64,000 nucleotides of DNA from Thomasclavelia spiroformis DSM 1552 (GCF_025149465.1 NZ_CP102275.1:2429596-2493595); one strand, 5' to 3'; counted from the stretch's first letter, positions 37,500-53,551 are shown. The notes: generated by a model not told the origin, from the sequence alone. Made by a program: numbers and translations.

Positions 37500-38918
37500 T
37501 CATAAGTTTATAGAGTTGTAATAATCTAGTGCACTTATAAATCCGTATATTTTTAATACTTCATTTGTAAGTGTCCTTTTTAGTATGAAGCTATTGGCGA
37601 TGTGCCAGTAGCTTTTTCTTGTGTTTGCCCATTCCCATGCCTTACTTTTATTAATACCTAGTTTTTGTAAATTTCTATACCTTGTTCTTACTAACTTCCA
37701 TCTTTTCCAATATATCATTCGTATTCTTCTTCTCATCCATGAGTCTATTTCCCTTAGATGTTTACTCATATTCGCTATCCTATAGTAATTCACCCAACCT
37801 GTAATGTATTCTTTTAACTCTTTAGCTAATTCCTTACTTGATATTGGTCGGTTCCTTTTGGTGATTTCCTTTATTCTCTTTTTCATCTTTTCTTTAGATT
37901 TCTTGTGAACAGTGATTCGTACATTACCACTCTTCTCTATATAAAATCCAAAGCCCAAGAATTTTATATCAGTAATATAGGCTACCTTTGTCTTCTCTTG
38001 GTTCACTTTTACAAATAATTTCTCTTCTAAATATCTTGTCACTGTTTCTTTGACTCTCATTGCACTTCTTTTACTTTTGAATAGTATGACACAGTCATCT
38101 GCGTACCTTACAAATCGATTTCCTCTTCTTTCCATTTCTTTATCAAATTCATTAAGATATATATTTGATAATAATGGGCTGAGTGGCCCACCTTGGGGTA
38201 CTCCTTTTGTAGTTTCTTCAAACTTATGTTTTACTATGACTCCTGCATTGAGATATTTATGTATGAGTGATATAACTCTTCCGTCTTTAATAGTTTGTGA
38301 CAATATCTGTATAAGTCTTGAATGGTTGACTGTATCAAAGTACTTCTCTAAATCTAGGTCTACTGTATATCGATATCCTTCATTGGCGTATTCGACTACT
38401 TTTCTTACTGCTTGATGGGCATTTCTTCTTGGTCGGAACCCATAACTATTGTCACTGAATTGGGGTTCAAATATTGGTGTCAGTACCTGTACTATCGCCT
38501 GTTGTATGACCCTATCCGTCACTGTTGGAATTCCTAACTCTCTTTTCTTTCCGTTATCTTTTGGTATTTCTACTCTTTTAACGGCTTGTGGACTATAATG
38601 TCCCTCCATGATAAGTTTCTTTAGATAAGACCAGTGTTGTGCGAAATGCGTACGAACTTCTGCGACTTGCATTTTATCTACACCACCACTTCCCTTATTA
38701 CTCATAACCCTTTGGATTGCCTTTTCTATATTGGCATCCTCCATAATTGTTTCAAGTAACTTCTCATGTACTACAAATCTATTGGTGTTCTTCGTATGTG
38801 ATATCTCTTGTTTTGATGTAGGATACACTTCTCCACTATTGTCGTATTCCGTACTATCTTCATAGAGTAAGCCTAATGATAGTTGACAGTATCCTATTTT
38901 ATCTTGAGTATCTTTCAT
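37500..38918 (-). CDS. ltrA: group II intron reverse transcriptase/maturase (no endonuclease domain)
   Basis: The 472-residue intron-encoded protein has the RT0-RT7 blocks RELGIPTVTDRVIQQAI, NSYGFRPRRNAHQAV, LDLEKYFDTVNH, KGVPQGGPLSPLLSNIYL and the active-site YADD at 272-275 (RFVRYADDCVILF). LGFGFYIEKSG and the maturase X domain (KELKEYITGWVNYYRI) follow. The end of the protein (AWEWANTRKSYWHIANS) has no HNH endonuclease, as in class C introns that target terminator hairpins and single-stranded DNA. The reading frame is intact. The stop codon abuts domain V. Confidence 0.93.
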   Translation of the reverse strand: MKDTQDKIGYCQLSLGLLYEDSTEYDNSGEVYPTSKQEISHTKNTNRFVVHEKLLETIMEDANIEKAIQRVMSNKGSGGVDKMQVAEVRTHFAQHWSYLKKLIMEGHYSPQAVKRVEIPKDNGKKRELGIPTVTDRVIQQAIVQVLTPIFEPQFSDNSYGFRPRRNAHQAVRKVVEYANEGYRYTVDLDLEKYFDTVNHSRLIQILSQTIKDGRVISLIHKYLNAGVIVKHKFEETTKGVPQGGPLSPLLSNIYLNEFDKEMERRGNRFVRYADDCVILFKSKRSAMRVKETVTRYLEEKLFVKVNQEKTKVAYITDIKFLGFGFYIEKSGNVRITVHKKSKEKMKKRIKEITKRNRPISSKELAKELKEYITGWVNYYRIANMSKHLREIDSWMRRRIRMIYWKRWKLVRTRYRNLQKLGINKSKAWEWANTRKSYWHIANSFILKRTLTNEVLKIYGFISALDYYNSINL

Positions 38919-39323
38919 TTCCAGTTCACCTCCTTATGTTCGGTCCTTCGCTAGATAACCATTACAGTTATCATCATCACTACTATGACCTCGGCTGACT
39001 TCCTAGGACAAACGTTTCCACCATGATTACATTTTCATCATGTTCCTAGGACCTCCCACGGTAAGACATAACACTTTCATCCTATGTACCCACTATCTTT
39101 ACACTGCTTATTCCGTCGTACTATTGGACTTCGATTTGTTTAGCAATCTCATCCGATAAGCTTCTGCCTAAAATAGTTCGTATTCCTTGGGTCAGGACTT
39201 TGCCTCCAACTTCCTCCCGTTCACACCTTACGATGGATACCTTGTCTTCGGCTAGTGGTTGGTAGTACGAAACCCCCACAGTGGACTTTCACCACCTAGT
39301 CTTATGTCATGCGTGGCACACTA

Positions 39324-39355
39324 AAAACGATGTAACGTAAATGCTACATCGTTTT
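39324..39355. terminator. terminator hairpin used as intron target, shared by convergent genes
   Basis: AAAACGATGTA and TACATCGTTTT form an eleven-base stem with a ten-base loop. On the minus strand it ends the propeller gene (the stop codon is inside), and TTTTTA runs straight into the intron 5' end. On the plus strand it would also have ended the ppk1-pfk operon before the intron entered between that operon and the hairpin. Confidence 0.85.
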
Positions 39356-41545
39356 ATTAGTTTTTTTCTTTATAAAATAAATACCCATAATCCCCATCAA
39401 TAAACCAACAATAGGTAATAATACAGTAACTTGATCGCCTGTTTTTATCAAAGTATTTACAGTATTTAAATCTAACTTTTCAGATATGAAATATGTATGT
39501 CCTTCCATTAATGTCATTGTTGTCTTTCCTTCAATCACTTCAACTTCCTTAACATATTCAATCTTTTGATTTTCATTATCATAGTAATATAATCCATATT
39601 GACCATCTGTTAAAGTTGTTTCTGTTTCAAAATTAATTTTTCCCGGGAAATTTCCTTTAAATTCAAAATCCAATATAAAAGCATTTGAGCTTGCATTTTT
39701 TATTATTTGACTATATTTTGAATCATGATTAATTCTATAATTAAAATCTTGAATATTTTTTAAATTTGTACCATTAAAACTAATATGATACGATAAATCA
39801 CCATCCAACATACCATCAACTACATAATCAATATCTTCACCAAAAATATTTTCAAAAACAATCGCCGGAATAATATTATTTTTCAATTGATCAATAATAT
39901 TTTTTGCATCAAGTACATCTTGATAATTTTCTACATAATCCTTATTAATTTGATGAATTTTTTCATAATTACTTATTAATTCATTAACAATAGATTCATC
40001 ATTTTTTGAGATATAATAAATATTTAATTCATTAATGATATCTTCATTTAATTTTTTTATAAGTTTTTCTTGTTCGTCTACAATTTTTTCTAACTCTTTA
40101 ACTTTATCTATTTCTACTACTTGTTGTTTATATTCATCACTTAATTTAGAGTATGCAGATAAAATTTCTTGTAGCTGATTATCTAATTTAATTGATACAT
40201 TATCTTTTGTTGGTAATGAAGCAATTTGCTTATTTAATTTATTAACGATAAGTTGTTCATCTTTTTCAGTTTGGATATTTGTATCAAATCCAAATTTAAC
40301 AATTGTGCCATTTCCATTATATGCATAAAATGCATTTTCATCCATGATAAGATTCCCATTCCAATAATTAGAACTAATTGATGTATCTAATGTATATAAT
40401 GATTGATAATTAGCTGTTTTATTTAATTGATTATCAGTAATATGATATAAATGTGTTTGATGATTTGAATCGTATGCATAATTGATCATGTATAATTGTA
40501 CTTCTTGCTGATTATCATCGCTAGCATATGCAGTTGATAAAATTGGCTTACATGATCCTGCAATATTATCAATTGAATATATTTCTTCTAATGTATTTAA
40601 ATCTAAAACTGTAAATGATATTCCAGCTCCACCGCCAATATAAATTCTTCCATTATAACAAACTGGTGAAGAAGAAAATTGCCCATTAAATTGTATAGAT
40701 TTCTCTAAGGTATTTTCCCTTAAATCATGATTCTCAACTTCAACAGTTACAATATATCCATTTGTATTAGCAGCAACTAATTTATTTGTTTCTTGATCAT
40801 AAAATAGAGAATTAGTTATTTTTCCTATTCCTAAATCCAAAGTATCATAAACTTTATCATCTTTTAAATCATGCAAAACAACTTTTCCATCATATCCTGA
40901 AAAAGCAATGCAGTCATTAATAACAACAGCTTCACTCCAATAATAACCTTGGCCTTGATCATATACCCAATTTAATTCCTTTGTTTCAAACTGTTGTAAT
41001 ATATCTTCATCTTTAGTACTTACACAAATAAATAAATCCCCTTGATTAGATGAATAACCACCAATTCCATAATATAAATATCCATCATGATACGTTAAAT
41101 GTGAAGCTACTTCACCAACTTTTTCGGGAGTTTTTGATACCCAAGTAGATACTAATGTTTTAGCATCAAATGCTTGAACTCTTCCATCTGATAAAGGAAC
41201 AAATATTTGTTCATCACCTGCAGTAATAAATGGTGTATATCCTGTTTTTCCAATCAACTCTACTCGATTTTCGATTTCCATTGTTGACTTATTTATTTTA
41301 AGTAATTCACCATTACTTCCACTACCCCAATCAGCAGTTTTTATTGTATATAAATAATCATCATATAAAACTGGATCTGCTCCATAACCTGATTTTAATG
41401 ACTGTACATTAGTTACTTGTTCAACACTTACTGGTGTTTTTTCTTCTGTAACTTTAGTTTCAATTCCATTTTTTAAAGCAATAACATAGTTATTTGGTAT
41501 AATCAATACGACAATAACTAAAAAGCTTAATAATATTTTCTTCAT
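39344..41545 (-). CDS. secreted PQQ-type beta-propeller protein with a KTGD sorting signal
   Basis: A 733-residue protein with a signal peptide (residues 1-23). About 400 residues of PQQ-like/WD-type repeats follow, with paired phrases such as DDYLYTIKTADWGSG, GDLFICVSTKDEDI, KLVAANTNGYIVTVE and GRIYIGGGAG. A coiled stretch (KELEKIVDEQEKLIKKLNED) and a beta-rich C-terminal domain come next. The last residues read TLIKTGDQVTVLLPIVG, a hydrophobic run, then KKKTNKTM, the layout of a sortase-anchored protein with KTGD in place of LPxTG. As the last gene of the riboswitch-ECF operon it is likely a surface corrinoid-binding or receptor protein. Function is inferred from context. The stop codon is inside a terminator. 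Confidence 0.75.
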   Translation of the reverse strand: MKKILLSFLVIVVLIIPNNYVIALKNGIETKVTEEKTPVSVEQVTNVQSLKSGYGADPVLYDDYLYTIKTADWGSGSNGELLKINKSTMEIENRVELIGKTGYTPFITAGDEQIFVPLSDGRVQAFDAKTLVSTWVSKTPEKVGEVASHLTYHDGYLYYGIGGYSSNQGDLFICVSTKDEDILQQFETKELNWVYDQGQGYYWSEAVVINDCIAFSGYDGKVVLHDLKDDKVYDTLDLGIGKITNSLFYDQETNKLVAANTNGYIVTVEVENHDLRENTLEKSIQFNGQFSSSPVCYNGRIYIGGGAGISFTVLDLNTLEEIYSIDNIAGSCKPILSTAYASDDNQQEVQLYMINYAYDSNHQTHLYHITDNQLNKTANYQSLYTLDTSISSNYWNGNLIMDENAFYAYNGNGTIVKFGFDTNIQTEKDEQLIVNKLNKQIASLPTKDNVSIKLDNQLQEILSAYSKLSDEYKQQVVEIDKVKELEKIVDEQEKLIKKLNEDIINELNIYYISKNDESIVNELISNYEKIHQINKDYVENYQDVLDAKNIIDQLKNNIIPAIVFENIFGEDIDYVVDGMLDGDLSYHISFNGTNLKNIQDFNYRINHDSKYSQIIKNASSNAFILDFEFKGNFPGKINFETETTLTDGQYGLYYYDNENQKIEYVKEVEVIEGKTTMTLMEGHTYFISEKLDLNTVNTLIKTGDQVTVLLPIVGLLMGIMGIYFIKKKTNKTM

Positions 41546-41571
41546 TTTCCTTCTCCTTCATACAAATAATT

Positions 41572-42255
41572 TTAATCTATAAATCCATATTTTAATTTAA
41601 TTCTTTGAAATCTCTTTAACAAAACAGGAACTAAGATCAACAAAAATACAACATTTGAAATAATATAAACAAACATTGTTGGTATTGCTGTAACAATTAC
41701 AGCAATATATCGATATATATTAAAGACCTGATCTAATGATAAAACAGTCCATATATCCATAAATAATGAATATCCTATCCCACAAATAATCCCATAACAT
41801 ACTAATAAAACTTTATTTTCCAACCAATTATTTTTATTCAATATTCCTGCTACAAGCCCGATTAAACCTAAAGCCATCATTTGAAATGGAGTCCATGGAC
41901 CCTGACCAAAGAATATATTTGATGCAAAAGCACTCAATGAACCACATAAAAAACCTATTTCTTGACCAAAAACCATCCCACAAATAATTATCATTGCCAT
42001 CATTGGTTTAAATCCAGGAATTAGGGCAAATAAAATTCTAGAAATAATTGTCAATGTAACCATAATACTTATTACAACAACTTCTCTTGTATGCGGTTTT
42101 CTATTTTCATAGCGGAAATAAAATGGTAAACAAGATAGAAATACTAATATAATTGATATAAAGTTATATCTTCGATTAATAATAGAATTTAGTGTAAGAA
42201 TAATTATTGATAAAATACTTGTAAAAATAATTAGATATTGAAACTTTTTATTCAT
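41572..42255 (-). CDS. ECF transporter S component (predicted cobalamin/corrinoid type)
   Basis: A membrane protein of 227 residues with about six hydrophobic segments. GMVFGQEIGFLCGSLSAFASNIFFGQGPW (cited in part) and FQMMALGLIGLVAGIL are the ECF S-subunit pattern of the HtsT/CbrT-like group. It binds the vitamin and docks on EcfT. An open frame begins at a TTG at 42270, but the ATG at 42255 follows GAGGAT at seven bases and is the likely start, overlapping the ATPase gene by eight bases. The substrate is inferred from the cobalamin riboswitch at the operon head and from the DUF4430 partner. Confidence 0.8.
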   Translation of the reverse strand: MNKKFQYLIIFTSILSIIILTLNSIINRRYNFISIILVFLSCLPFYFRYENRKPHTREVVVISIMVTLTIISRILFALIPGFKPMMAMIIICGMVFGQEIGFLCGSLSAFASNIFFGQGPWTPFQMMALGLIGLVAGILNKNNWLENKVLLVCYGIICGIGYSLFMDIWTVLSLDQVFNIYRYIAVIVTAIPTMFVYIISNVVFLLILVPVLLKRFQRIKLKYGFID

Positions 42256-43795
42256 ATTTGATATCCTCAATTATATTTACATTATCTAAAATCCCTCTAG
42301 TTAATTTATTCATAATCGTTGTATAAAATAAGTTAGAGGAAAAAAATACAGCAGTTTTATCTATTGATTCTATTCTTCCATCAAACATCATTCCTATTCG
42401 CTTCGCATAGCGAGCACAAAATTCTAAATCATGTGAAACAATAATAACAGTTACCTTATTAGCAAGTTTTTCTAATAAATCGCCAATTTTTTCTTTATAG
42501 TAGGCATCTAAGCCTTTAGTTGGTTCATCAAGTAAGATTAATTTAGGATTTCGTGCTAATATTTTAATAAAAGCAACAATTTGCATTTGTCCACCACTTA
42601 AATCATATGGATGTTGTTCTAGTAAAAAATCTAATTTTAAATCATATAACAAATCAATACTTTCTTGATTACCAAGTTCTTCTCTAACTGTTTCTTTTAA
42701 AAACAAAGTCGTAGGATCTTGTGGTAAATAAGCAATAAAATTATTAAATAAATTTTTATCTTTTTTTATTTCTACTTGTTCAACATGAATTTTACCGCGT
42801 TTATAATTTAATAATCCACATATAACTTTCAATAAAGTTGATTTTCCACAACCATTACTTCCAACTATAGCTAAAACTTCATTTTCATACACATCTAAAT
42901 TCAATCCTTTTAAAACTGGGATATCTTCATAGTTAAAATGAATATTTTTTAATTGCAATAATATATTATGTAATTTAAACTCATTTTTATCTAGAACCGT
43001 AAAATTATCTTGATGATCTTTTATCCATTTTCTAACTGATTTAAAATCATATACTATATCTTCAATATTACTTTTATGAAATAACTGCGTAGCAACCGGT
43101 AATGCTTTTTCATAGTTTTTTAATTTTGGTATTCGTCTTGGTGTTCCATAATACTTAATTTCTCCATTTTCTAAATAAATAAGATAATCACATACTTTCA
43201 TTGTTTGTTCTAAATCATGCTCAACAAGTACAACCGTTATATTTAATTCTTCATTAACCCTTTTTAACATTGTTAAAAATTCTTGAGAAGCTATTGGATC
43301 CAATTGCGCTGTTGGTTCATCAAGTAGCATAACTTTTGGTTTCATCGCTACTATGCTTGCTAAATTAACTAACTGTTTTTGTCCTCCAGATAGCTTTGAA
43401 ACATCTTTATATAAAATATCTTGCAAATTAAAAAAATGAACCACTTCACCTACTCGACGTTTCATTTCTTTTAAAGACATGTTCATATTTTCTAAGCCAA
43501 AACTTAATTCATGAATTACTTTATGACTTACTATTTGAAAATCTGGATTTTGAAATATATATCCAATGTCTTCTGGTTGATTAGTTGAATTATTAATAAA
43601 AATATTTCCGGTTATATCACCTTGTGGCATTATTTCTTTTTTTAATAATTGCAATAAAGTTGTTTTCCCACTACCACTTTTTCCACAAATCAAATAAAAT
43701 CCGCCTTCTTCAATTTTAAATGAAATATTTTTTAATATATAATTCTGATTTTTTTGATATCGAAAAGAAAGATTTTCAATCTTATATATATTCAT
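42248..43795 (-). CDS. ecfA: energy-coupling factor ATPase, two EcfA domains fused
   Basis: A 515-residue protein made of two ABC ATPase domains. The first has Walker A CGKSGSGKTTLLQ, Q-loop YIFQNPDFQI, signature KLSGGQKQLV and Walker B VMLLDEPTAQLDP. The second has VGSNGCGKSTLLK, YLPQDPTTLF, DLSGGQMQIV and LILLDEPTKGLD. Both sites look complete. Together they power the EcfT scaffold. In many ECF systems these are separate genes (ecfA1, ecfA2). The fusion and the private T and S genes point to a dedicated, single-substrate (group I) ECF transporter. The gene overlaps ecfT by 14 bases. Confidence 0.93.
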   Translation of the reverse strand: MNIYKIENLSFRYQKNQNYILKNISFKIEEGGFYLICGKSGSGKTTLLQLLKKEIMPQGDITGNIFINNSTNQPEDIGYIFQNPDFQIVSHKVIHELSFGLENMNMSLKEMKRRVGEVVHFFNLQDILYKDVSKLSGGQKQLVNLASIVAMKPKVMLLDEPTAQLDPIASQEFLTMLKRVNEELNITVVLVEHDLEQTMKVCDYLIYLENGEIKYYGTPRRIPKLKNYEKALPVATQLFHKSNIEDIVYDFKSVRKWIKDHQDNFTVLDKNEFKLHNILLQLKNIHFNYEDIPVLKGLNLDVYENEVLAIVGSNGCGKSTLLKVICGLLNYKRGKIHVEQVEIKKDKNLFNNFIAYLPQDPTTLFLKETVREELGNQESIDLLYDLKLDFLLEQHPYDLSGGQMQIVAFIKILARNPKLILLDEPTKGLDAYYKEKIGDLLEKLANKVTVIIVSHDLEFCARYAKRIGMMFDGRIESIDKTAVFFSSNLFYTTIMNKLTRGILDNVNIIEDIKYE

Positions 43796-44645
43796 AATTA
43801 TCTATCATCCTTCCTAATAAAAGTGGTAAAGCCAAAAGCAACAAATAGCCGATATAATACAAAATATCCAATAACCCAAATTCTATCGTTTTAATGATTG
43901 GATAATAATAAAATGATGCATATCTTGTTATATATCCAAAAATAAAAATAAAATCTAATAAAATAATAACTATCAATACTATTTGATCTCTCGATTCAAA
44001 TATATATGTATGAAAGTTAGTTCTTACCTTTTTTCCATATCCTCGTGCTTGCATACTTTTTAAAGTAGTTAATGATGATTCAAAACTCCATGTAAATAAA
44101 ATTAATAAAATATCAAATCCTACTTTTATTCTTGTTATTATATTTCCTTTAGTAATGTCTTTTCCTAATGTTTTTTGAGTCTCAATAATACTTTTTAACT
44201 GTTTAATAAAACGTGGAATCATTGTTAGAATCATGCTAATCATTAATCCAATCGTTGGAAATTTATTTTTAAATAAATAAATTATTTTTTCACTATCTAA
44301 ACACTCATTTAATATTTTAAACCAATTAATCATTGAAATAATTACAGTAGAAAAAACAAAACCATATATAATTGATTCTAAAGTAATTGGTATATATCCA
44401 AAATAAAACAAAATAGTTGCACCAGTATGGACAAAAATAGGATTACTTAAAGCAATAATAAAATAAAATATACTTATACCTACGATATATTGTTTATTTA
44501 CTAATCGTATATCAAAAAGATATGTAAATGATAAAGCACAAGACAGGATTAAAAAAACCGGATGTAACTGAATCATTGTTGTTAAAACTATTGATAAAAA
44601 ATATATAAAAATAATTAACGGATGATATTCTTTAAAACTTTTCAC
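43782..44645 (-). CDS. ecfT: energy-coupling factor transmembrane protein EcfT
   Basis: The 287-residue T component has about five to six membrane segments and the coupling-helix motif SMQARGYGKK (the Ala-Arg-Gly box that engages the ATPases). TLGKDITKGN and RFIKQLKSIIETQ form the second coupling helix. It starts with GTG at 44645, whose G overlaps the TAG stop of the DUF4430 gene, so translation is coupled along the operon. It connects EcfA to the S component for vitamin uptake. Confidence 0.9.
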   Translation of the reverse strand: MKSFKEYHPLIIFIYFLSIVLTTMIQLHPVFLILSCALSFTYLFDIRLVNKQYIVGISIFYFIIALSNPIFVHTGATILFYFGYIPITLESIIYGFVFSTVIISMINWFKILNECLDSEKIIYLFKNKFPTIGLMISMILTMIPRFIKQLKSIIETQKTLGKDITKGNIITRIKVGFDILLILFTWSFESSLTTLKSMQARGYGKKVRTNFHTYIFESRDQIVLIVIILLDFIFIFGYITRYASFYYYPIIKTIEFGLLDILYYIGYLLLLALPLLLGRMIDNYEYI

Positions 44646-45316
44646 TAATATAAATCCCCACTATAACAGCTATAGCGCCATTTCACCTTATCGTTATTAT
44701 TTAATACATGTTCCTTACTTCCTTTATCACCATAAATCCCATTAACTTCATACATCCATCCACCACTTCCATTAAATAATTTTTCAGGTAAGTTATTTAT
44801 TGATTGAATATATCCACCTATCGAAGATAATTGTATTTTTTGCATTTTAGTAACTTTAACAATAACATCAAACACAGTATCACCTTCATTAATACTTACT
44901 TTTTTCTCCGCTAAAATCACACCATTACTAGGTACAAAAGAATGATATTGTTCTGGTAATTCATTTAAATTATTTAAAATAGTTTTACAGTCTATAGATA
45001 AAGTTATATAACGCTTGCCATTAGCTACATTATCATCTGATGTAGGCGTATTATTATCTTGGTTAGTTTCTACTTTTGTTGATTTATTTGTATTTGATTG
45101 CTTTGATTTTGTTTCTTGATTAGATTGTAGCTCTAAGTTTTCTTCTTCATTTTGTTTTAAAACAAAAGTTTTTTTTGATTCTTGTTGAACTTTTGTCTCT
45201 TTTATATTTTTAGAGCTATCAAGATTACTTGAAGATGTTAATGTAATTGCAAAAATTGAACAAAATAATAAACAAATACATATTAATAAACCAACTAATT
45301 TCTTATTTTTAAACAT
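44645..45316 (-). CDS. DUF4430 surface protein, predicted corrinoid-binding
   Basis: A 223-residue exported protein. The signal or anchor is at residues 1-25 (KKLVGLLICICLLFCSIFA), then comes a low-complexity linker rich in Gln, Glu, Asn and Lys, followed by a DUF4430 domain with EGDTVFDVIVKV, FNGSGGWMYEVNGIYGD and NDKVKWRYSCYSGD. DUF4430 resembles the C-terminal domain of transcobalamin and intrinsic factor. The frame stays open to 45409, but that start lies in the riboswitch. The ATG at 45316 directly after AGGGGGGAAC is the real one. First gene of the ECF operon, so it probably catches corrinoid outside the membrane. Confidence 0.82.
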   Translation of the reverse strand: MFKNKKLVGLLICICLLFCSIFAITLTSSSNLDSSKNIKETKVQQESKKTFVLKQNEEENLELQSNQETKSKQSNTNKSTKVETNQDNNTPTSDDNVANGKRYITLSIDCKTILNNLNELPEQYHSFVPSNGVILAEKKVSINEGDTVFDVIVKVTKMQKIQLSSIGGYIQSINNLPEKLFNGSGGWMYEVNGIYGDKGSKEHVLNNNDKVKWRYSCYSGDLY

Positions 45317-45346
45317 TGTTCCCCCCCTAATAAATAATAAATAAAA

Positions 45347-45363
45347 AAGAGCATACTGCTCCT
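45347..45363 (-). terminator. expression-platform terminator of the cobalamin riboswitch
   Basis: On the minus strand AGGAGCA-GTA-TGCTCTT plus TTTTTATTTATT forms a seven-base intrinsic terminator 31 bases before the DUF4430 start. The riboswitch 5' strand contains a related AGGAGCA, so alternative pairing is possible. This would let ligand binding stop transcription. Confidence 0.6.
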
Positions 45364-45397
45364 TTAAAATAAAACTCTTTACATCGAAAAGTTTTAT

Positions 45398-45485
45398 CAA
45401 AAAGGACACCTGACTACTATATAAAATAGATTACAGTTGCGGGACAGTCCTGGAATCTCACCAAAGTTGCTCCTATAATATTAAT
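45398..45485 (-). promoter_or_regulatory. cobalamin riboswitch (short class-II-like)
   Basis: On the minus strand the core motifs appear in order: GGTGAGATTCC, AGGACTGTCCCGCAACTGTAA, then AGTAGTCAGGTGTCC. These match the conserved blocks GGTGxxAATCC, CTGxCCCCGCxACTGT and AGTCAGGxGACC of the cobalamin element. The insertion that carries the long P7-P11 arm of AdoCbl class I is missing, as in the shorter class II type. It precedes a terminator and the DUF4430-ECF operon, and would turn it off when corrinoid is plentiful. Confidence 0.8.
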
Positions 45486-45496
45486 TTTTCAATATT

Positions 45497-45524
45497 ATTT
45501 TATAAGATATTTATTCTATGTCAA
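45497..45524 (-). promoter_or_regulatory. sigma-A promoter of the riboswitch-ECF operon
   Basis: On the minus strand TTGACA (45519-45524) and TAAAAT (45497-45502) are spaced by 16 bases. The start, near 45489, falls just before the riboswitch. Confidence 0.7.
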
Positions 45525-48931: not shown

Positions 48932-51900
48932 TTAATTATTTTTTCTTTTTTTAAGACAAGCAATTGCACCTAATGAAGCCAATAATCCTAAACTTGTAAA
49001 CATTCCTACTAAGCTTTCATCTCCAGTTTTTACACTTGTAGTTGTATCACCATTATTTACTGGTGTACTTACTGTGTTATCTGCTGGTGTATTTACATTA
49101 GCTTCTAAGCTATTGATCGCTTTTTCTAATGTAGCTTTAGCATTGTCTACTTCTTTTTGAGTTGCATTTTTATTTGTTAATACGTTTTTAGCATTTTCTA
49201 AAGCATCATTTACAATTTGAACTGTTGCTTTACTATAGCTAGCTAAATTTAATCCTTCTGCTTTGTTGATTAATTCTTCTAATAAACTCTTATCTGGAAT
49301 TAATCTTAAATTCAAGAATGATGTTACTAATTCACTGTATGCATTATTTACTTCTTCTTGCATTGCATTTTCATCATTATATACAGCTACTGCTTCAGTT
49401 AACTCTGTTTCAAATGCTGTCCATGTAGCTTCTGTATATTTATCAGCTTCTAATCCACTAACTTTATCGATAAATGCTTTTAATGCTGTTTTATCACCTT
49501 TTTCAAAGTCTAACATATGCATAGAATTTGCAAGTCGATCAAATGCATTATTTACTTCTTCTTGTGAAGCTGTTAAATCATTATAAACTGCATTAGCTTC
49601 ATCTCTAGCAGCTTTAAATTCATCAACTACTGCTGGTACAACATTTTCTAAATCTTCATCAGTGATTGCATTAGCTAAATCTATTGCAATTTGTAAAGCA
49701 GTCTTATCAGCAGTTGTAGCAGAAGCTTCAGCAATATTCATACCATAATCTACAACTTGAACTTCTAAATCATTTACATCAAAATCATCAGATATATTTT
49801 CAATCAAATCATTTAAATTAATAGTTAAATCTGCTTCAGTGTTATTTACACGAATAATATCACTAACACGAGCATCTTTATAATAAACAGCTAAAGCTTG
49901 GATACCAGATCTATCACTTGCATTAATAGTAAGAATTTTGTCATTAGTTAAAGCTAAATCAACTTCTGGTGCAGTTACATCCACATTTACATCAAATGAT
50001 TGTGTTTGAACATTATCAGAATTCATTAAAACATCTAAACATGAATCTTTATCACCATAGTCTACAGAGTTTAGATATTCATATTCTTGTATAGCACGAA
50101 CTTCAAAAGTATAAGTACCTTCTTTTACAAGATTACCATCAGAATCTGTACCATCCCAATACATTTCACGATTATATTTAGTACCATAAGTTAAAGCAGC
50201 TTGTTGAGTTCTATTACCGTCATTAACTTTTGCTTCAAAATATTCATATTCAGGACCAATTACATTAACAACATTCCCATTTTCATCTTTAATTACTACA
50301 CATAGTGCTTTGGCATTACGTAATAAATAAAGCGCTGCATAAGCAATATCATCCTTACCATCTTCATTTGGAGATATAGTAACATAAGAACCATTTAATT
50401 CACCATTTGTACGAAGATCATCTAAATAGCTACGAATTGTATTGTAATAACTTGTAGAAGATCCTCCAAAGTAATCTGGTAAAGATGTTCCTGTAAATTG
50501 ATTTGCACCTAAAACCACATCATATCCATCAACTAAAGAATTTAAAGTTGTTGTATGGAACAATGGATATTTTTCATCAGTAGTATCTAATTCACTGATG
50601 TCATCATAAGCAGTTGCTAAATCAAAGATTGGAGCTGCATTCCAATCACCTCTAAATCCTAAATAAGGAATGCTAAGAGTTTCATAATCAGAATCTACAT
50701 TATCAAAGAAAACAAATCCTTCTAAGAACATACCATTAGGATATTTTTCATCATAAGCTTTCATTGTTTCTTCATTCAAAGTTACACTAACTGTAATTTT
50801 AGTTGAACTATTAGCAGGAACAGAAATTTTTGTTGCAGATGCATCATTACCATAACGGTTAATATTATTAGATTCACTGACAATAGTACCATTAGAAACA
50901 GCAGTAACTTTCATTACACCATCTTCAATTGCATCAATATCTGAACCATAAGTATTAACAGGAGCAATAATAGTGCGTCCATCTGATTCTGTAGTATTAT
51001 CAGTTTGAAGACATGCAAGTACATCAAATGTCTTTGCTACAGAATCGTAGTTATCCATATTAAATGTAATATCAAAAGTTGTACCTAATTTATCACCTAA
51101 TTGTACTTTAGTACGAGGAGAATCTCCAGTAATTGGATCAAATACAGTATCATTACGTAATAAAACCAAGCTATTAATTACATTTTCAATATTAGCCATA
51201 CCAGCACCTTGACGTCTTGGAGAGAAATACAAGTTCTGACGTGTCAAATCTTCTGAACTTACAAATGGTTGATAAGCTATTGCAGTAGAAGCTACTAACT
51301 GATTTATCAATTCAACATATTCATGAGTTCCAGTTTTTACTCCAAAAGTATCAAGATTATCATCTACATACTGTTGAGCAAGAATAAATAATCCTTCTGC
51401 ATTTGGTGAAGCCATAGAAGTACCACTCTTTGAAGATAGTGCAGTATCTGATGATGCTCCTGCAGACCAAATATTTCCTCCTGGAGCCATTACATCTGGT
51501 TTTAAATTCATAGATTCACTTACACCCCAAGAAGTAGAACCAGCTGGTCCGTTATCATTATAATTACGAGTTATAGTTTCAGATTTATCTTCTGAAGAGA
51601 AAGTTACATTTACAGTACCATTAGCAATAGCAGATACTAAAGCATTATAAACATCACTGCTAGTAGCTGTACCAGCAAAAACAGGAATGCTTTCACCACT
51701 TGCACCAGTCCATAAACCATTAGTACCAAAATAATCACTATAATAATCAAAAGTCATATATACGGCCACAGCACCAGCTTTATAAGCATTTTCTTGAGCA
51801 GCTATGATACCTGCTTCATCATAAGGAACATAACCATAAACACGTTTTACTAAAGCTACTTTACCAGTTAAGTCTTGTGTAATGGAAGAACCATCACCAC

Positions 51901-53551
51901 AATCAACTAATTCATAAGTACCATTTAATACTTCACCTAGTGCCGGACTATAAAGATCACTAATCATAATAGTATTAACAGTTTCACTATTTGAATTTAC
52001 AGCAGTAGCAGTAGTTTCTGTGTATTTGTTAATATAAGAATATCCTATACCTTGAGCTGAAGCAACAGTCATAGGTGCGTATAATGAACCAGAGAATCCA
52101 CCTGCTGAACTATTAGGTAATAATGTAGTATATCCATTAACTAGCGCTCCTGGATGACTATCACGAGCATCATTACCTGCAGAAATATTGATAGTAATAC
52201 CGCTAGCATGTGCACGATTATAAGCTTGTTGATATCCAGCTTGAGCGTAAGTATTCATAGTTGTAAACCCATTAGGAATACCAAGAGATAAGTTAAATGC
52301 ATTTACACCCAAAGTAACTGCATCATCCAAAGCAGCAAATACGGCTTCATCAGATTCTTGACCAAAATCATCATTTTCATCAAATACTTTAAAGAACATG
52401 ATTTGAGCATCATAAGCAGCACCTTTAACGCCGGAAATTTCATCATAACCTTCACCGCCATTACCGGCAACAATTCCACTAACATGTGTACCATGACTAC
52501 TAGAATCCCCATCCCATGCATCTAAATCACCGCAAGCATAATCAACAGAGAATGGAACTTTAGAGTTATAATAGAAATCTCCATTTAAAATATCTTGTTG
52601 TACATCTTCTGAAAAACCAGTTTCATCAAAACCATGGAACCAACTTCCCCAACCTTCTACAAATAAGTTTAATGTACTTTGATTTGCTTTAACAACATCA
52701 AGTAAATTTTCTTTTGTTTTATAGTTAGAAAGTAAACCAGCTTCACCAGCTTTTTCTACTTCAGGATCCATATAAGAAAATAATTTATGTGTGTAACGGA
52801 TACTGCTATCAAAAACTCCAACAACTTTGCCCGCACCAGTATAACCAGCTTCCCAAGCTGCTTCAAGCCCCATTTGGCTAGCAGAACCAGCATCAGATTT
52901 AACAGACTTGCTTACATCAATAGCATCACATCCAGTAAGTTCATAATAATCTTCCAAAGATATGTATTCTGCATTTTCTTCTTCTTGCCAATTGGCATCA
53001 TAATTATAAGTTTGTGTCATGTAAACAGATTTTACTCCATCTAACTTTTTGATTTTTTCTATGTATTGATACTCAACTTGTGCTGCAAAACCATTAAGTA
53101 AATTAGTATAGTGATATTTATATACTGTATCAGGAGCAAATTCTGAAATTTCTTTTTTTATTTTATCTTGTTGACTTACCATATCTGCTCGATAAGCAGT
53201 TACAGATTCATCAGTAGAATAAGCAATACTATCATTTTTAAACTTAGTAACATATTCATCTACGTCTAAAGTAGTTTTACCATCTAATTCAACAACTACT
53301 GTTACAATCTCATCCGGTGCATACTGTTTAGTAGAAATTGTTTCTCCTGCAGTAAGCTCATCCAAAAGATTAGCACCACCGCTAGTCGCCGTATTTTCAC
53401 CATTTAATGCTACGCTTGTCGAAACCGACGTACCAAACATTGTTGTTACAGCGAGAATACTTACCAAAAACTTTTTAACTGAATTTTTTTTCATAAATTC
53501 ATCTTCCCCTGGCATAACATTCATGTCTGTTAAATAATCTATAAATGTCAT
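48932..53551 (-). CDS. subtilisin-family cell-envelope protease with FIVAR repeats and KTGD sorting signal
   Basis: A 1539-residue S8 protease of the C5a-peptidase/lactocepin type. Signal segment at about 25-48. The inhibitor-like prodomain (TVVVELDGKTTLDVDEYV, LDGVKSVYM) comes next. The catalytic set is Asp248 (VGVFDSSIR), His353 (SSHGTHVSG), Asn460 (NISAGNDAR) and Ser712 (SGTSMASPNAEG). A protease-associated domain lies between Asn460 and Ser712. An Fn3-like domain and a FlgD-Ig-like segment follow, then three FIVAR repeats and SVKTGDESLVG with a hydrophobic run and KKRKNN. Two starts are possible: ATG at 53551, with a good AAAGGA site, or ATG at 53494, which gives a usual signal peptide. 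It may process host or bacterial surface proteins. Confidence 0.88.
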   Translation of the reverse strand: MTFIDYLTDMNVMPGEDEFMKKNSVKKFLVSILAVTTMFGTSVSTSVALNGENTATSGGANLLDELTAGETISTKQYAPDEIVTVVVELDGKTTLDVDEYVTKFKNDSIAYSTDESVTAYRADMVSQQDKIKKEISEFAPDTVYKYHYTNLLNGFAAQVEYQYIEKIKKLDGVKSVYMTQTYNYDANWQEEENAEYISLEDYYELTGCDAIDVSKSVKSDAGSASQMGLEAAWEAGYTGAGKVVGVFDSSIRYTHKLFSYMDPEVEKAGEAGLLSNYKTKENLLDVVKANQSTLNLFVEGWGSWFHGFDETGFSEDVQQDILNGDFYYNSKVPFSVDYACGDLDAWDGDSSSHGTHVSGIVAGNGGEGYDEISGVKGAAYDAQIMFFKVFDENDDFGQESDEAVFAALDDAVTLGVNAFNLSLGIPNGFTTMNTYAQAGYQQAYNRAHASGITINISAGNDARDSHPGALVNGYTTLLPNSSAGGFSGSLYAPMTVASAQGIGYSYINKYTETTATAVNSNSETVNTIMISDLYSPALGEVLNGTYELVDCGDGSSITQDLTGKVALVKRVYGYVPYDEAGIIAAQENAYKAGAVAVYMTFDYYSDYFGTNGLWTGASGESIPVFAGTATSSDVYNALVSAIANGTVNVTFSSEDKSETITRNYNDNGPAGSTSWGVSESMNLKPDVMAPGGNIWSAGASSDTALSSKSGTSMASPNAEGLFILAQQYVDDNLDTFGVKTGTHEYVELINQLVASTAIAYQPFVSSEDLTRQNLYFSPRRQGAGMANIENVINSLVLLRNDTVFDPITGDSPRTKVQLGDKLGTTFDITFNMDNYDSVAKTFDVLACLQTDNTTESDGRTIIAPVNTYGSDIDAIEDGVMKVTAVSNGTIVSESNNINRYGNDASATKISVPANSSTKITVSVTLNEETMKAYDEKYPNGMFLEGFVFFDNVDSDYETLSIPYLGFRGDWNAAPIFDLATAYDDISELDTTDEKYPLFHTTTLNSLVDGYDVVLGANQFTGTSLPDYFGGSSTSYYNTIRSYLDDLRTNGELNGSYVTISPNEDGKDDIAYAALYLLRNAKALCVVIKDENGNVVNVIGPEYEYFEAKVNDGNRTQQAALTYGTKYNREMYWDGTDSDGNLVKEGTYTFEVRAIQEYEYLNSVDYGDKDSCLDVLMNSDNVQTQSFDVNVDVTAPEVDLALTNDKILTINASDRSGIQALAVYYKDARVSDIIRVNNTEADLTINLNDLIENISDDFDVNDLEVQVVDYGMNIAEASATTADKTALQIAIDLANAITDEDLENVVPAVVDEFKAARDEANAVYNDLTASQEEVNNAFDRLANSMHMLDFEKGDKTALKAFIDKVSGLEADKYTEATWTAFETELTEAVAVYNDENAMQEEVNNAYSELVTSFLNLRLIPDKSLLEELINKAEGLNLASYSKATVQIVNDALENAKNVLTNKNATQKEVDNAKATLEKAINSLEANVNTPADNTVSTPVNNGDTTTSVKTGDESLVGMFTSLGLLASLGAIACLKKRKNN
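49097..49729 (-). repeat. three FIVAR repeats of the protease, homologous to repeats 2-4 of the GH2 protein
   Basis: Residues about 1275-1485 hold three units whose order and phrases (DLANAITDEDLENVVPAVV, NENAMQEEV-like, LNLRLIPDKSLLEELINKAE) follow the GH2 repeats two to four closely. NNGDTTTSVKTGD corresponds to NNGDTTSVKTGD. The cassette probably spread by recombination between surface genes. Confidence 0.8.

Follow-up and report, generated by a model that had tools for sequence, protein, structure and literature searches.

How a Gram-positive gut bacterium might gather vitamin B12 at its surface is the question raised by a five-gene operon of Thomasclavelia spiroformis DSM 1552. In the literature covered, surface capture of B12 is described only for Bacteroidetes and their relatives (BtuG, BtuH, and DUF4465 proteins), and BtuG homologs are reported to be exclusive to Bacteroidetes (PMC6143338). 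In the same literature, B12 import by Gram-positive bacteria is described at the membrane step only, and papers on gut bacteria name no Gram-positive systems other than BtuFCD and ECF-CbrT (PMC6977713, PMC6593275). Gut communities are shaped by competition for B12, and this operon offers testable candidates for the surface step in a Firmicute.

The operon was analyzed computationally in a window of 64,000 nt (GCF_025149465.1, NZ_CP102275.1:2429596-2493595), the whole stretch of DNA under study, to which the coordinates below refer unless another locus is named. Its assignment as a corrinoid uptake operon is well supported, and we propose that it encodes a corrinoid (B12) scavenging system of a B12-requiring gut Firmicute in which a surface capture relay leads to an ECF importer (probability about 0.7).

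A cobalamin riboswitch precedes five tightly packed genes

The features of the operon, in their order on the minus strand, are as follows.

45497..45524, minus strand: sigma-70-type promoter, TTGACA-16-TAAAAT, 11/12 consensus bases, the top promoter match in the region
45364..45486, minus strand: AdoCbl riboswitch aptamer, short P1-reduced form (RF01482, 60.2 bits, cut-off 50)
45345..45365, minus strand: intrinsic-terminator-like hairpin and T tract, a likely transcriptional expression platform
44645..45316, minus strand: gene for a DUF4430 protein (PF14478, 51.8 bits, cut-off 23.8)
43782..44645, minus strand: gene for the transmembrane coupling subunit EcfT (orthologue-family profile and gene order)
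42248..43795, minus strand: gene for a fused double ATPase, EcfA-EcfA' (EcfAA), with two ABC domains (TIGR04520, 331.7 bits, cut-off 315)
41572..42270, minus strand: gene for a CbrT-like S component, the substrate-binding membrane subunit (PF07155, 46.9 bits)
39344..41545, minus strand: gene for a secreted, sortase-tailed beta-propeller (TIGR01167, 20.1 bits, cut-off 15.9)

A preliminary description of this DNA had placed a cobalamin riboswitch and a terminator at the head of the operon. The search with the Rfam cobalamin models bears this out, as RF01482 is matched above its cut-off (E-value of 1.5e-8 in a search across the whole window) and is followed by the hairpin at 45365-45345. The five packed or overlapping genes of that description, including those for DUF4430, EcfT, EcfAA, S, and a propeller with a KTGD tail, likewise agree with the domain matches, and adjacent genes overlap or have at most 26 bp between them.

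The putative ribosome-binding site AGGGGGGG precedes the ATG of the DUF4430 gene at 45316. A GTG at 45409 was considered as an alternative start and rejected because it lies inside the aptamer, whereas a strong ribosome-binding site lies in front of the ATG, the likely start of the gene. Since this ribosome-binding site is downstream of the terminator, the sequence points to premature termination as the most likely mode of riboswitch control, in which low intracellular AdoCbl would let transcription past the terminator.

The ECF transporter is predicted to import corrinoids

The operon combines genes for an S component, EcfT, and a pair of EcfA domains, the arrangement of group I-type ECF transporters, and the order of these genes is kept in relatives. 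The EcfT family profile matches solved EcfT chains (E-value of 9.8e-18); Pfam CbiQ gives no match to the EcfT of the window, though it matches 9 of the 14 EcfT orthologs. In a profile ranking among S components with a solved structure, on which the CbrT-type assignment is based, the top match of the S family was CbrT of ECF-CbrT (6FNP chain A, E-value of 8.3e-11), followed by HmpT (9e-6) and, weakly, by a 5d0y/FolT-type chain (0.08). Both cobalamin and cobinamide are substrates of ECF-CbrT (PMC5997447).

The host genome (2.53 Mb, one contig) encodes MetH, a B12-binding radical SAM protein, and the adenosyltransferase BtuR, and no match to CbiC or CobS was found in it. Judged by this gene content, T. 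spiroformis is a corrinoid user that probably lacks corrinoid synthesis of its own. Elsewhere, a MetH gene adjoins the operon (L014) or BtuR lies downstream of it (L016-L018). Because of the CbrT-like S profile, the riboswitches, and the adjoining MetH and BtuR genes, support for corrinoid as the substrate far exceeds that for any other candidate, and EcfT, EcfAA, and S are predicted with high confidence to form a dedicated corrinoid importer. The preliminary description had also proposed a dedicated transporter, and no clustering of its S component with another vitamin was observed, CbrT being the best match in the profile search.

It might be argued that the transporter imports another vitamin or cobalt and that the riboswitch merely couples it to B12 status, as EcfT orthologs match CbiQ and the S component is named riboflavin-type in Pfam (PF07155) and folate-type in NCBIfam (below cut-off). 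However, the Pfam name spans many S components, the E-value for CbrT is five orders of magnitude better than that for the next S component, and the operon encodes a DUF4430 protein with the fold of B12 carriers. In addition, CbiC and CobS were not found in the host genome, so cobalt for corrin synthesis would be useless. We therefore regard import of another substrate as very improbable.

The closest solved relative of the S family (E-value of 8e-11), ECF-CbrT of Lactobacillus delbrueckii, shares the ECF architecture and transports corrinoid, which is also the predicted substrate here (PMC5997447). The two systems differ in that CbrT has its ECF module in common with other S components (group II), whereas EcfT and EcfAA of the window are encoded with S in a riboswitch operon (group I-like), and in that the CbrT gene cluster, nrdJ-cbrS-cbrT-pduO, contains neither a DUF4430 nor a propeller gene.

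The T. spiroformis genome has a second EcfT-EcfAA-S set, located beside BtuR and a YbaK-like gene (L143:1893-4853; C1:1889892-1892852). It lacks DUF4430, the propeller, and any riboswitch scoring above cut-off, and the conserved GPWTPFQM motif has been lost from its S component. Since the BtuR-linked site holds the full operon in sister species, the window operon may have replaced this eroding copy.

The core of the operon is widespread in Bacillota

Other species of Thomasclavelia share the order DUF4430-EcfT-EcfAA-S-propeller, as do Beduini and a third genus of the family, and as the proteins are only ∼28-59% identical, its retention is not due to chance. Cobalamin riboswitches, called by Rfam models, are present upstream of the orthologous operon at L012, L013, L014, L017, L018, L135, and L138. 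A loose B12-box regular expression was also tried and dropped, as it matched about as often as expected from shuffled sequence and missed known aptamers.

When 84,980 species genomes were scanned by alignment with the S component, 585 relatives were reported, and the best 80 of these 585 were examined. A DUF4430 gene lies beside EcfT or S in 57 of the 63 loci with enough flank, a second, larger DUF4430 protein is encoded in 37 of the same 63, and a propeller is present in just 5 of the 80. The DUF4430-EcfT-EcfAA-S core occurs widely across Bacillota, and a cobalamin riboswitch precedes it in 5 of the 7 genera tested (Viridibacillus, Kurthia, Lysinibacillus, Anaerosalibacter, and Desulfosporosinus). 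The accessory propeller is rarer: it is missing from most genomes with the core operon, and from several Thomasclavelia, and is therefore not needed for import in general. The gene set of the preliminary description stands, but this core, with larger DUF4430 proteins instead of the propeller, had been missed.

The DUF4430 protein has the fold of mammalian B12 carriers

The DUF4430 protein consists of an N-terminal membrane anchor, a low-complexity linker, and a C-terminal domain at about residues 100-220. Canonical lipoboxes occur in orthologs from the same family; none is present at the membrane anchor of the window copy. The GW.Y..N residues of DUF4430 are invariant. A structure model of the domain (pLDDT >90) was compared with the PDB, and the top matches were the mammalian B12 carriers haptocorrin (Z 14.0, rmsd 1.7 over 97 residues), intrinsic factor (Z 13.4), and transcobalamin (Z 11.7-12.6), followed by bacterial 3u7z, which has the same shape (Z 11.1), and then by the next fold at Z 8.6. 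A sequence-profile search of the PDB gave transcobalamin-2 as its sole, non-significant match (E-value of 1.7). The likeness to the carriers, which had been suggested for the C-terminal domain of transcobalamin, is settled by the structural comparison. The C-terminal domains of the three carriers and bacterial DUF4430 (PF14478) thus have a fold in common (Z 12-14).

In intrinsic factor, haptocorrin, and transcobalamin, a beta domain of the DUF4430 type closes over cobalamin. The window protein differs from these carriers in being tethered to the membrane and in having no toroid domain. We consider it likely that its beta domain captures or caps a corrinoid and presents it to the S component. 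If so, DUF4430 would gain a probable function across hundreds of genomes, and a bacterial uptake domain would be linked to the domain that caps B12 in the human carriers intrinsic factor and transcobalamin. In the part of the full-text literature that was covered, we found nothing relevant on bacterial DUF4430 in B12 uptake, and prior mention of the core operon is possible.

Domains found in the larger DUF4430 proteins are of the S-layer, cell-wall-binding, dockerin, or Ig-like kind, and a prenyltransferase-type alpha-alpha toroid is present in 7 of 44. Intrinsic factor and transcobalamin are likewise built from a toroid and a DUF4430 domain, and the same pairing is present in some operons of Clostridia. 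Surface proteins of this kind are encoded upstream of B12-ECF genes in Clostridia and relatives at L058:5403-7514, L074:5919-7523, and L121:1993-6303.

The propeller gene is linked to corrinoid control

The propeller gene was found in 14 genomes, including those of two further families picked up by a propeller profile; relatives came from an alignment-based genome search, and a contig scan with the lone propeller as query returned none. In all 14 genomes, B12-ECF genes adjoin the propeller gene or lie within ∼11 kb of it. Among the 12 with the 5' flank on the contig, 10 have a cobalamin riboswitch above the curated cut-off before the operon or the propeller gene, and an eleventh (L139) has weak matches of 40 and 31 bits. 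The search of the upstream region in Beduini (L015) gave no cobalamin riboswitch. The strongest individual indication that the propeller is a member of this regulon comes from L136 and L137, where its gene is displaced by ∼4 and ∼10 kb from the ECF genes and has a cobalamin riboswitch directly in front of it (two in L136), so the propeller is tied to corrinoid control in its own right. The place given to the propeller in the preliminary description is upheld by this survey of neighborhoods, in which it is kept in the operon of relatives under the control of cobalamin riboswitches.

The propeller proteins of one genus in the window's family carry a DUF4430-like domain at the N terminus (hhalign probability 94%), and at L135 a single protein has both propeller and DUF4430. 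The propeller protein may be one of several interchangeable surface modules of the uptake system.

Two of these loci contain other genes. An apparent FtsX-type permease, its ATPase, and a ∼440-residue protein of no named family are encoded at L136:14741-18292 and L137:2-3182, and in L136 this set sits between a cobalamin riboswitch and the DUF4430-ECF genes. It is possibly an envelope export or hand-over system of the same regulon. A 1633-residue PI-PLC-X protein with a sortase-like tail (L137:7336-12237) is encoded in the interval that separates the propeller gene with its riboswitch from the B12-ECF operon.

The propeller is a predicted surface protein of the eight-bladed type

The propeller protein has a signal peptide, called by eye, a propeller at about residues 40-420, an acidic stalk (421-700), and a C-terminal KTGD sortase signal. 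This signal, IKTGD followed by a hydrophobic stretch and KKK, is a variant motif for which TIGR01167 scores above its cut-off. TGD is invariant across 9 aligned propellers of the window's family, and the host genome has four sortase genes. These features predict a sortase-anchored surface protein that would be attached to the wall.

The best matches of the propeller model (pLDDT ∼80, medium confidence) were the eight-bladed YxaL, Rv3035, BamB, and designed Cake8/Tako8 (Z 31-36), and family searches gave matches of the BamB/PQQ_2 repeat type only, with PQQ_2 matched by 10 of 16 members of the propeller family. In its model, the propeller shares the eight-bladed PQQ-type fold of BamB, YxaL, and Rv3035, whereas context and anchoring differ, and we know of no role for any of these three in vitamin uptake.

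One reading of these matches, and the main rival to corrinoid capture, is that the propeller is a scaffold that keeps the DUF4430 protein, the ECF complex, or both in place in the envelope via protein-protein contacts. BamB is part of the BAM complex, propellers of the BamB/Rv3035 fold are often protein-binding scaffolds, and an Rv3035-FecB complex is in the PDB, which sets a precedent in a mycobacterial envelope for pairing a propeller with a binding-protein-type lipoprotein. Work on the mycobacterial orthologs places FecB and Rv3035 in one envelope-synthesis assembly (PMC12802301). The status of the propeller as an accessory to the core operon also fits a scaffold. However, a capture protein would account at least as well for the separate cobalamin riboswitches of displaced propeller genes, and anchoring to the wall by sortase is not obviously required for a pure scaffold of a membrane complex. 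We consider a scaffold role rather unlikely.

PF16819, which we take to be the Pfam family of BtuG, was matched by 0 of the 16 propeller family members at an E-value of 0.001. An association of PF16819 with BtuG has been reported (PMC13398666). BtuG2 was absent among the 50 propeller structure matches listed, an absence that proves nothing alone. The BtuB-BtuG system of Bacteroides is also a riboswitch-linked corrinoid locus with a surface propeller that has an acidic face (PMC6143338, PMC10404256). BtuG is a seven-bladed surface lipoprotein on a TonB-dependent barrel (PMC6143338), whereas the propeller of the window is, in its model, of the eight-bladed type, has a sortase tail and no PF16819 match, and is encoded with an ECF transporter. 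Because of the modeled fold and the lack of a BtuG Pfam match, the likeness to BtuB-BtuG that had been put forward earlier holds at most as an analogy of function.

The propeller has a pI of 4.4 and is acidic like most of its relatives, and BtuG2 binds corrinoid on a negative face (PMC10404256), a parallel that is suggestive only. We judge the chances that the propeller binds corrinoid directly to be evenly balanced. It could instead dock on protein-bound corrinoid, held by a microbial or host B12 binder, or on a surface glycan, with the DUF4430 protein taking the corrinoid over. Such piracy has a precedent, since BtuG2 strips B12 from intrinsic factor (PMC6143338), and the DUF4430 fold is that of the capping domain of host carriers. 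Against this, absorption of B12 with intrinsic factor in humans is mainly small-intestinal (PMC6977713), and the core operon is also present in Lysinibacillus, Kurthia, and Desulfosporosinus, taxa that are not restricted to animal guts. We consider docking improbable.

In the preferred reading, that of a corrinoid scavenging system with a surface capture relay, the propeller would bind a corrinoid or corrinoid carrier in the wall and hand it over to the membrane-tethered DUF4430 protein, which would capture or cap the corrinoid and present it to the S component, and the dedicated importer of S, EcfT, and EcfAA would carry it across the membrane. A broader proposal, to which we give somewhat less than an even chance, is that Gram-positive bacteria have their own surface B12 capture, arisen independently of BtuG, in which a corrinoid-binding, sortase-anchored eight-bladed propeller and a tethered capping beta domain of the intrinsic-factor type work with an ECF importer, the beta domain of the animal carriers being of the same family. 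Within the partial coverage of the literature, we found neither a wall-anchored propeller in an ECF operon nor B12 capture by a Gram-positive sortase/propeller system.

Other features of the surrounding DNA

Directly downstream of the propeller gene is a group II intron (RF02001, RF01998) with a reverse transcriptase (37500-39237, minus strand). A second copy of the intron, with a split reverse transcriptase and internal transposase ORFs, lies near the eroded ECF locus (L143:8123-11185). The window also encodes a large subtilisin-like protease (48932-53551, minus strand), which has FIVAR-like repeats and a sorting tail, SVKTGD, that resembles the one on Thomasclavelia propellers.
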